The notes under the pieces: generated by a model
What the model saw: only the letters and a program-made list of their open reading frames with translations
Database searches by the model: none
What the model was told of the DNA's origin: nothing
Made by a program: the position numbers and the translations under genes
Source: Candidatus Moraniibacteriota bacterium
GTDB taxonomy: Bacteria; Patescibacteriota; Minisyncoccia; Moranbacterales; UBA1568
Assembly: GCA_013334245.1 (NCBI GenBank)
Contig: JAAXXZ010000008.1
Coordinates: forward strand, 1-50,249
Length of the DNA: 50,249 bases
Reading direction: 5' to 3'
In this document: positions 31,869-39,091 of the stretch, piece by piece
Numbering within the stretch: the stretch's first letter is position 1
Layout of the letters: each line of letters opens with the position of its first letter

Positions 31869-32216
31869 ATGCATGAAAAACTCCTTATCTTTCAGAAAAC
31901 GTACGAGTGCGTCTTATGGCTTTATCCGATTATAAACCGTATACCACAGAGTCATCGTCTGGTCTTGGGGCGTGCGATCGAAGATCGCGCGATTTCTATG
32001 ACTATCGCCGTTATTGAAGCTAACAAAAGGAGCGGAGCGGACCGAATCGCTTTTCAAAAACAGGTATCGAATGATCTTGATGTGGTGCGCATACTGCTCC
32101 GTCTTGCGAAGGATTTGAGGTTCGTAAGCGTGGGGCAATATTCGGCTGGTGTGGACAAGATAAACGAGATAGGACGTATGCTGAGTGCATGGATGGAATC
32201 GTCAAAGAGGGTATGA
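31869..32216 (+). CDS. avd: Avd-like four-helix-bundle accessory protein of the DGR
   Basis: 115 residues, all helical and basic. MHEKLLIFQKTYECVLWLYP, SHRLVLGRAIEDRA and RILLRLAKDLRFVSVGQYSA follow the Avd / four-helix-bundle family closely. In studied systems Avd forms a pentamer that binds the reverse transcriptase and the template RNA and is needed for adenine mutagenesis. It ends 32 bases before the template repeat. Start: ATG 31869 fits the family and is eight bases after an extended -10 (TGG-TATACA, 31856-31861); ATG 31842, with an AGGA before it, is the alternative. Confidence 0.9.
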   Translation: MHEKLLIFQKTYECVLWLYPIINRIPQSHRLVLGRAIEDRAISMTIAVIEANKRSGADRIAFQKQVSNDLDVVRILLRLAKDLRFVSVGQYSAGVDKINEIGRMLSAWMESSKRV

Positions 32217-32248
32217 TACCGTATGCATGAGGGGAGGACCGAAGCGCG

Positions 32249-37300: not shown

Positions 37301-39091
37301 GCCGTCTCGCACTATTATTACATGATCAACACACAACCTCCGGCGACGTTTGCCACCTTGCGAGGGAACGCATCGACCTATATCGACAATGGTACGAGTA
37401 CATCGGTTCCCGCTTCCGCGTTGCCGAATGTCAACAAAGGAGTCAATACGGTGGTCGTCGTGGCAGTCGACGATGCGGATACACCGAACTATTCGCCCTC
37501 AAACAAGATTGAAGGGAGCTTCACGCTCGATTCGACCGACCCGGACAATGTGACCAATATCGTTGCTTCGGATTCGTCTATCAAATCACTCTCCCAGTGG
37601 AATGTGACCCTGACCTGGGGCGCTCCCGCGTATCAGGGCGCCGGAAATCTTTCGTATCTCGTGTATCGTTCGACGGACGGCATCTCCTTCTCTTCTGTCG
37701 GTTCTACTGCCGGACTCTCGTATGTCGATACGACACCGGAGTCGCGGGAATATTATTACAAGGTGTACGTGCAAGACGGTGCGGATGCTCGAAGCTCTGG
37801 ATCGAATGCGGTCACGCTTGTACCGACCGGAAAATGGACGACTCCGCCGACACTCGACAAAGGCCCAGACGTGAACGATATCACGACCGGCAAGGCGACG
37901 ATTTCGTGGGGGACGAGCCGAAGTGCCGATTCAAAAATTGCGTATGGGACGAAACGGGGAAAGTATGGAGAGGATGAGATCTCCAATTCGGACCAGACCG
38001 GAAGTCATTCGGTCAATCTGACCAATCTCGATGCCGGTACCTCGTATTATTACCGGGCCAAATGGACCGATGAGGACGGCAATACCGGTGAGAGCGAGGA
38101 GCAGAGTTTCCAAACTGCCGATGCCCCGACCGTGAAAGATGTTTCCGTACGAAATATCGGACTGGATTCTGCGCTCGTCCGGTTCACGTCCAAAGGCGCA
38201 TCCGAAGTGAAGATCTTCTATGGTCCGACGACGGGCTTCGGTGGGAGCAAAACTATTTCGACTTCATCATCGGAAACGACGTATACAGCTGAACTACCCG
38301 GACTGCAAGATGGCACGAAATATTATTACAAGATAAACACCTTTGACGCCGATGGGAAGGAATACGAAGGGACTGTGCTCGACTTCGCTACGCTTCCGAG
38401 GCCGAAAATTTCAAATGTCCGTATCCAACAAGTCGCCAATACGGCGCAGTCCACCATACTCGTCACGTGGATTACGAACACTGAGATTTCTTCCATCGTC
38501 TCGTATGCGCCAGAAGGAAAGCCGGACGCATCGCGCGATGAGGTCTCTGTGGCCTTGACGACTGGCGAACACAAAATGATCATTCGCGGGTTGCTTCCAC
38601 AAACCGGCTACGTGCTTACCGTGCGCGGTCGGGACAAGGCTGGCAATGAGGCGGTATCCGATAGCCAGCGATTGACGACCGCCACCGACACCCGACCACC
38701 GCAGATGTCCGGTATTTCCATAAAGACAGCCATCGTTCCCTCGGTGACATCATCGTCTCAAGAGTCTATGGCACAAGCAGTCGTATCGTGGAATACAGAC
38801 GAGCCCGCGACGAGTCAGGTAGAGTTCGGTGAAGGGACGGGTACGGCGTATGCTCAAAAAACCCAGGAGGACGGTAACCTTACGACAAACCATCTTGTGA
38901 TCGTGTCCGGGTTGTCGCCGTCGAAGGTGTATCACTTGCGGACCATTTCCGCGGATGCGGCTGGAAATATCGGTCATTCGATCGATACGGTCACCATCAC
39001 TCCGAAAACGATAGATAATGCGCTCGATCTGGTAATCTCCAACCTCAGAGAGGCCTTCCGGTTCCTTGGCTCATTTGGGGGAGGAAGGTGA
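34391..39091 (+). CDS. DGR target: membrane-anchored FGE/C-type-lectin protein with fibronectin-like repeats
   Basis: 1566 residues. A basic N-terminus and one membrane helix (about 25-45, NMLALFFMGMGTVAGAYLI) anchor it with the rest outside. Residues 115-422 are a formylglycine-generating-enzyme/C-type-lectin fold (FLAMKYEAKC, WDIAGNVWEWTND, then the variable tract ending SVGFRCASD), the classic DGR ligand-binding fold. Residues 430-550 look like a jelly-roll domain. From about 690 to 1540 several fibronectin-III-like units recur (for example TSYYYRAKWTDEDGNTGE, TKYYYKINTFDADGKEYEG, KVYHLRTISADAAGNIG). It ends without a second anchor. Probable role: a surface protein whose binding face is rewritten by the DGR. 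The position of the variable tract, with about 1150 residues after it, is unusual. Confidence 0.93.
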   Translation: MMNFTEKTKRYFLAPRFRFNRFQFNMLALFFMGMGTVAGAYLILSEAIPRIFALNDTAKVWSLSASTAGQYATSLVAVDDTGAHPSGGATGANEFANPDFATNTDSWSVAAAPPSGWVEVPGNGTYSTSNFLAMKYEAKCAATGTPAIGLTTPEVSSYNTYDDNASACTTANGKRVVSVASGYPIANVTQTSAITRCSTVSVGTTSAHLQTNDEWMTIARDAEAQDANWTLGSVGSGYLFAGHNDNAPAKARIASSTDTGNNACAYTDSAGTSESPSGCPSNTASGSSGTAGNQKRVLTLSNGAPIWDIAGNVWEWTNDTIQGKNQPTGATPGFGWREFTALTTYGTLSYDKTRPAHSSYASATGVGQIYSDGTASNTTAYAFCRGGGWGGTSNAGVFALSLFNTPGSQYNSVGFRCASDPVAISSSFSSSSGRFAAGGTIFSVGPVSDGKLFQRVNVGDTATYDFSVFVSDATVGHVGGTVDATVASLEVGGTPIATTYTDQGSGWWKLSATVTGTASLREYGIIALTGKSLHADDFSLVRQGTFFTYPSVAYSNILVNTWDTFCEGSLAGSVCTEDATHVRDASISYQFCDDDGSACESGNTWKYWDGSVWQTAGDTSLTHANTPAQLTRTAMQSFPTGSKKISFRAIFRNGDSADVPRIPHVSIGLTTDTERPVMNASGIVMRRSTSGTTVGVAPDDRTNSAEPYFSWTPGADDPSGSGVRGYCLYLGTDPSGDPATSKGLLGASPASIAGTDCQFIVSSTSIDFASAVLRGSPWLVSSTSSYYFSVKVVDNSGNTFGGDSASFPFRYDGSAPTNVSYISCASGSFSNVVDMSFSWPTDGSAAATDGHAGIFGWQYQINATTGTWRGTTTESVLGIGDYFPLADVSYALTDAQDSGSIVSGNNIVYFRSVDAAGNPSSDSTIRTCNLAFGGIAPAFGSMDTVTIAPSTSTSNEYALSWPEATASSGRAVSHYYYMINTQPPATFATLRGNASTYIDNGTSTSVPASALPNVNKGVNTVVVVAVDDADTPNYSPSNKIEGSFTLDSTDPDNVTNIVASDSSIKSLSQWNVTLTWGAPAYQGAGNLSYLVYRSTDGISFSSVGSTAGLSYVDTTPESREYYYKVYVQDGADARSSGSNAVTLVPTGKWTTPPTLDKGPDVNDITTGKATISWGTSRSADSKIAYGTKRGKYGEDEISNSDQTGSHSVNLTNLDAGTSYYYRAKWTDEDGNTGESEEQSFQTADAPTVKDVSVRNIGLDSALVRFTSKGASEVKIFYGPTTGFGGSKTISTSSSETTYTAELPGLQDGTKYYYKINTFDADGKEYEGTVLDFATLPRPKISNVRIQQVANTAQSTILVTWITNTEISSIVSYAPEGKPDASRDEVSVALTTGEHKMIIRGLLPQTGYVLTVRGRDKAGNEAVSDSQRLTTATDTRPPQMSGISIKTAIVPSVTSSSQESMAQAVVSWNTDEPATSQVEFGEGTGTAYAQKTQEDGNLTTNHLVIVSGLSPSKVYHLRTISADAAGNIGHSIDTVTITPKTIDNALDLVISNLREAFRFLGSFGGGR
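35526..35650 (+). other. DGR variable repeat (VR), codons 380-420 of the target
   Basis: Pairs with TR 32249-32373. Changed codons relative to TR: 384 (TAA to TGT), 388 (AAT to GGT), 390 (AAC to GGC), 391 (AAT to GGT), 401 (AAT to AGT), 403 (AAC to TTC), 408 (AAT to AGT), 410 (AAC to TAC), 412 (AAC to AGC), 413 (ATC to GTC), plus a silent A to G at 396 and the lone non-adenine change at 397 (GCA to GTA). Substitutions are A to G or A to T. Confidence 0.97.
35685..35703 (+). other. GC-rich hairpin 34 bases after VR (candidate DGR target-recognition hairpin)
   Basis: CCGGCCGC-TTT-GCGGCCGG: an eight-base-pair all-GC stem with a three-base loop, inside the coding frame. DGRs often need a short GC-rich DNA hairpin just downstream of VR to mark it as the recipient; size and place fit, although it is somewhat farther away than in the Bordetella phage. 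Confidence 0.7.

Follow-up and report, generated by a model that had tools for sequence, protein, structure and literature searches.

The 50,249-nucleotide stretch analysed here (the window) likely encodes a bacterial diversity-generating retroelement (DGR) whose substrate is a ligand-binding patch in the interior of a very long surface protein. Its cis element appears to be embedded in coding sequence, and the target is inferred to have been fused to the stalk protein of a stalk-ABC-FtsX module. By all available sequence tests the locus is a genuine and complete DGR (Table 1); its activity in the cell is inferred and, as there are no reads, unproven. A preliminary description of this DNA had placed all DGR parts in one locus and one orientation, and every part does lie on the forward strand. 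It had also called the genome Patescibacteria-like, which is supported, a Roizmanbacteria genome falling in the same phylum. Three things were overlooked: the internal variable repeat (VR), the coding cis element and the linked ABC transporter. DGRs of Patescibacteria are already well known. As far as the literature shows, what appears to be new is a bacterial lineage with ~1,140 residues beyond the VR, codon-level evidence for a coding homing site, and a conserved ABC-FtsX partner. No report of a bacterial DGR with an internal VR, or of a DGR with FtsX/MacB, was found in the literature, and earlier work on CPR DGRs (Paul et al. 2017) might mention it.

Table 1. Features of the DGR and its linked genes in the window.
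Feature	Position	Strand	Basis and remarks
avd, accessory variability determinant	31871-32216	+	NF033474, PF22296; start set by homologues (MHEKL...); open frame from 31842
TR, template repeat	32249-32373	+	Adenine-tolerant repeat search; one TAA (32263-32265) when read in the VR frame
Structured TR-RT spacer RNA	32374-32560	+	Covariation in a 15-sequence alignment
DGR reverse transcriptase (RT)	32857-33963	+	PF00078, IGNLTSQ and YMDD, PDB 8ub7, tree
Target gene, 1,566 aa	34391-39091	+	N-terminal hydrophobic segment, FGE-type C-type-lectin domain, Fn3-type stalk
VR, variable repeat	35526-35650	+	Residues 379-420, internal in target
IMH-like VR 3' end	35628-35650	+	Identical to TR, zero mismatches; codon conservation excess 0.44, residues 411-420
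Putative coding-embedded cis element, 20 codons past VR	35651-35710	+	Strong synonymous constraint
GTAGCTATCT motif, codes V-A-I	35654-35663	+	In the sister clade it lies past the stop and is non-coding
Coding DNA hairpin CCGGCCGC(TTT)GCGGCCGG	35685-35703	+	Codons SGRFAAG in Ser/Gly-rich stretch; DNA fold z -2.6
Fn3-type stalk	35711-39091	+	Fn3; stalk homologues without lectin domain in same genome and genus
ABC ATPase (LolD/FtsE/MacB-like)	39365-40114	+	3' of target in window, G004, G005 and 8 relatives; 46-74% identity
MacB/FtsX-like permease	40134-42119	+	PF12704 and PF02687; linked in the same loci

The individual parts named in the preliminary description, an Avd-like gene, a TR with a matching VR, a structured spacer, an RT with DGR-type motifs and an FGE/C-type-lectin domain in the target, were all borne out. 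The avd product matches NCBIfam NF033474 (DivGenRetAVD) at 91 bits (cutoff 80) and Pfam bAvd PF22296 at 67.1 bits (cutoff 40), and relatives with sequence at that position have an Avd-like gene just 5' of TR. An ungapped search for adenine-tolerant repeats returned a single pair, the 125-bp TR and VR, which differ at 17 positions, 16 of them TR adenines (12 A>G and 4 A>T); the remaining mismatch is one C>T, and 16 of the 36 TR adenines differ in VR. This adenine bias (binomial p 2.8e-8) rules out a chance repeat. TR-like DNA occurs at only two sites in the 1.12-Mb draft genome, TR and VR themselves. Adenine-specific mismatch recurs in eight of nine related TR/VR pairs (nine of ten with the window), the sole exception being the pair examined in locus L101, where no Avd was recognised upstream of TR. 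In another relative, L059, an assembly gap of 7 N falls exactly at the VR, which is what a hypervariable region would give. Contigs of two genomes of the same genus, G004 and G005 (L018/L019 ends; L073, L074), end at identical points in both genes, RT residue 105 and target residue 628, suggesting that the middle of the cassette, including the VR, is near-identical or unresolved between both.

The structure of the spacer between TR and RT covaries across 15 aligned spacers. Its helices pair 32415-32424 with 32429-32438 and 32442-32445 with 32454-32457; in helix 1, 8 of 9 base pairs have undergone compensatory double changes, with 96% of cells paired and none of 500 shuffles scoring as high. 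No Rfam family matched the spacer. The spacer of phage BPP-1 recruits RT-Avd and primes cDNA (PMC12875486).

The RT carries the DGR-type IGNLTSQ and YMDD motifs (SQ-type motif 4, xxDD), and its best match among solved structures is the entry group 8ub7-8ube (E 1.7e-50), as against 4.8e-18 for a group II RT; 8ub7 is the RT of the Bordetella-phage DGR. In a 40-row tree of DGR and group II RTs, from which retrons are absent, the RT groups with DGR enzymes and apart from group II introns, with a support of 100 for the separating branch. A group II intron RT is excluded by this placement, by a score of 135.9 bits against a cutoff of 300, and by SQ in place of SP; a retron RT is rejected by score (NF038233, 47.9 bits against a cutoff of 235) and by motif. 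Together with those of three undetermined truncated loci, the RTs of the internal-VR loci group in a single clade (support 98), the sister of which consists of three C-terminal-VR loci (support 92).

Other features of the locus and of related genomes bear on its surroundings. Dispersed intergenic repeats (GTCTTTGCGAGGGAGTCTGCGAC..., CTGGATTGCTTCGC...CTCGCAAAGACGG) occupy gaps between the DGR genes (31526-31800, 32630-32820, 33976-34250 and 39118-39310), and similar repeats lie between TR and RT in L018 of G004. The same TR-RT interval of L018 contains, at about 2992-3290, an ORF starting MYEKIPCVYILASERNG that by eye resembles a GIY-YIG endonuclease. Additional DGRs, with C-terminal VRs and with RTs from a different lineage, are present in same-genus genomes (L020, L021, L023, L024), and G004 encodes three or more DGR RTs. 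A phage origin is without support, since a viral-contig search with the VR-hairpin-stalk protein gave no match. For an empty-site comparison, the Nudix gene upstream of the DGR has relatives in G002 and G003; the genes 3' of the DGR travel with the target and so cannot mark an empty site.

The FGE domain of the target scores 28.1 bits when isolated (Pfam cutoff 23.3) and 22.2 bits, slightly under the cutoff, within the whole protein. The best profile match of this lectin domain among solved structures is TaqVP (5VF4), a DGR variable protein (E 1.7e-9); its binding role here is inferred. Describing the target as carrying the VR was correct as to its presence, but the wording conceals an internal position, at residues 379-420 of 1,566. 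Fn3 domains were detected with Pfam, and the VR is followed by 1,146 residues of Fn3-type stalk. Surface anchoring had also been claimed, and there is an N-terminal hydrophobic segment; this segment, spotted by eye, is the sole basis for the claim. AlphaFold2 models of target residues 86-640 and of the lectin domain were too poor for a fold search (pLDDT 38-39). Stalk proteins (the 3' end of the L071 ORF; window 39020-39091) end in a conserved segment, PK...NALDLVI.NL.EAFGFL, which might serve in anchoring or sorting.

A large survey found VRs near-universally at target C-termini and explained this by a requirement for cis elements outside coding sequence (PMC8144416). The window target does not meet this canonical criterion, and it is not alone. 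Twelve distinct homologous targets with internal VRs were found in several Patescibacteria lineages, including Woesebacteria, Roizmanbacteria and Dojkabacteria, and the ~1,140 residues beyond the VR are conserved among relatives. The order avd-TR-RT-target had been noted as unlike that of Bordetella, and it proves to be the rule within the RT clade: all 11 internal-VR loci for which an RT sequence is available show TR, RT and target in that order on one strand. In the C-terminal-VR relatives examined, the target lies upstream or on the opposite strand.

Retrohoming cis signals appear, as judged from codon usage, to lie within the coding sequence of these targets; their role in homing is inferred. 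Codon identity, a stronger test than the hairpin count given below, was compared among identical residues of the 12 homologous targets, other parts of the gene serving as internal control. It reaches 0.79 at the VR 3' end (expected 0.35) and 0.55 over the 20 codons following the VR (expected 0.27), and elsewhere outside the VR stays near background at 0.34-0.38 (expected 0.32-0.35), with an excess of 0.01 from residue 441 on. Of 368 columns, the six under the strongest constraint lie at residues 416-430; Val422, for example, is GTA in all 12 targets. Gene conversion by TR-to-VR copying accounts for the constraint up to residue 420, but not for that at residues 421-440. The GTAGCTATCT motif within this stretch also stands just past the target stop in all three C-terminal-VR loci of the sister clade, and is absent from the other C-terminal-VR loci examined. 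Codon conservation alone, with no experiment, narrows the probable homing site to some 60-75 bp.

DGR hairpins are known to sit 4-34 bp past the VR (PMC3240598). The window meets this criterion with an 8-bp stem 34 bases past the VR, inside the ORF, and six relatives have coding stems of 6-8 bp with the loops GAA, GGA and AGC, that of L049 at +53. In L046 and L068 a C-G pair is swapped for T-A on both sides of the hairpin, a compensatory change. A coding hairpin is seen in 7 of 12 targets, against 0.5 expected under synonymous recoding, a null that ignores shared ancestry; a clear hairpin is missing within the tested stretch of the other five. Two hairpin-less internal-VR targets (L047, L098) have G-rich runs, GGTCGGGGGGG..CGGGGGGG, at about +36 past the VR.

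In the window, in G004 and G005, and in all eight relatives with enough sequence, genes for an ABC ATPase and an FtsX/MacB-like permease come directly after the target, often within ~10 bases. None of the C-terminal-VR loci checked has the ABC-FtsX pair. Lectin-less stalk proteins, at L071 of the same genome and at L125 and L126 of the genus, likewise precede an ABC ATPase and an FtsX/MacB-like permease, from which it is inferred that the lectin domain joined a pre-existing surface module. This conserved linkage provides a first lead on the role of the target in tiny, host-dependent bacteria, the function of the partner itself being inferred.

A mechanism can be proposed in which TR RNA, held by the structured spacer, would be bound by Avd-RT and serve as template for a cDNA that carries errors at adenines. 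This cDNA would then take the place of the VR inside the FGE-type lectin domain, guided home by the identical VR/TR 3' end and by the downstream cis DNA element (GTAGCTATCT, with a short hairpin in many members). Because the VR is internal, this element would occupy codons of the Ser/Gly-rich segment that joins the lectin domain to the Fn3 stalk. The most likely origin of the lineage is that a C-terminal-VR target lost its stop and became fused in frame to the pre-existing stalk protein of a stalk-ABC-FtsX surface module. This would be the simplest history by which a non-coding cis element was carried into a reading frame, although the direction of the fusion is inferred. The diversified domain may then act as a changeable binder tied to a MacB/FtsX-type ABC transporter. 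It is also conceivable, and is offered only tentatively, that in this Patescibacteria lineage the entire homing recognition site entered coding DNA by in-frame fusion, making a hypermutable binder part of a receptor partnered with a mechanotransmitting ABC transporter, to be used for instance in sensing, gripping or exchanging with changing hosts.

The codon conservation past the VR could instead come from a signal of another kind with no part in DGR target recognition, for instance a promoter inside the gene, a translational control or an RNA element that is processed. Overlapping coding signals come in many kinds, and the hairpin is missing in 5 of 12 targets. Against this, the constraint begins at the end of the IMH and ends ~60 nt further on, as in known DGR targets, the sister DGR clade has GTAGCTATCT right past the stop, and the hairpin at +34 is within the published DGR range; such a signal is therefore considered unlikely. 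A DGR homing element written in codons remains the preferred reading. The locus might be an ordinary DGR with a read-through tail, the Fn3 stalk a mere domain arrangement and the ABC genes chance neighbors, given that nanoarchaeal variable proteins also have internal VRs, a 46-residue tail and coding hairpins (PMC5006420, PMC4372165). That is quite improbable in view of the ~1,140 conserved residues past the VR and of an ABC-FtsX pair directly 3' in all 8 relatives with sequence there, across lineages with RTs 43-61% identical.

A decayed or inactive relic, in which the VR and TR differences are old, is very unlikely. There are no population data to exclude it, one mismatch is a C>T, and the in-frame TAA in TR means that an unmutated copy would cut the target short. 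However, all genes are open, the VR mismatches are still adenine-specific with no erosion elsewhere, and the TR of G005 is 99% identical to that of the window despite 86% protein identity in the RT fragment; the TR of G004, of the same genus, is 90% identical. The in-frame TAA is also present in G004 and G005, and the TR of L049 carries an in-frame TAG.

A DGR that diversifies an internal domain through a coding cis element represents a way round the C-terminal VR rule, for which the survey gave as reason that cis elements must escape coding constraint (PMC8144416). Such a DGR is relevant to how the cDNA locates its target, still an open question, and hints that engineered systems might carry variable regions in the interior of genes.

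The locus shares features with several known systems. With the DGR of Bordetella phage BPP-1/BMP-1 (mtd-avd-TR-brt) it has in common avd, TR, a structured TR-RT spacer, the same RT type, adenine mutagenesis, and an IMH with a hairpin past the VR. In BPP-1, however, the target is upstream, with the VR at the gene end and the hairpin at or after the stop, whereas in the window the target is downstream, the VR internal and the hairpin coding, with a 3-nt loop. The Thermus aquaticus protein TaqVP (5VF4) is likewise an FGE-type lectin variable protein, but has a single domain and its VR at the C-terminus. Clade 2, the Patescibacteria-restricted DGR clade of Roux et al. 2021 (PMC8144416), also comprises cellular DGRs of Patescibacteria, although membership of the window DGR in it is not implied: the targets reported for clade 2 have C-terminal VRs and mostly lack a recognisable membrane or other domain, unlike the window target with its internal VR, Fn3 domains and hydrophobic N-terminus. 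The nanoarchaeal DGRs, with coding hairpins with GRA loops, an internal VR and 46 residues past it (PMC4372165, PMC5006420), resemble the window in the internal VR and in-gene hairpin, and the GRA loops of DUSEL4/AvpA recur in several window relatives (GAA, GGA). Those systems are archaeal, with a non-FGE lectin subtype and a 46-residue tail without crystal density, whereas that of the window is bacterial and FGE-type, with a stalk of ~1,140 residues, a linked ABC transporter and the loop TTT.
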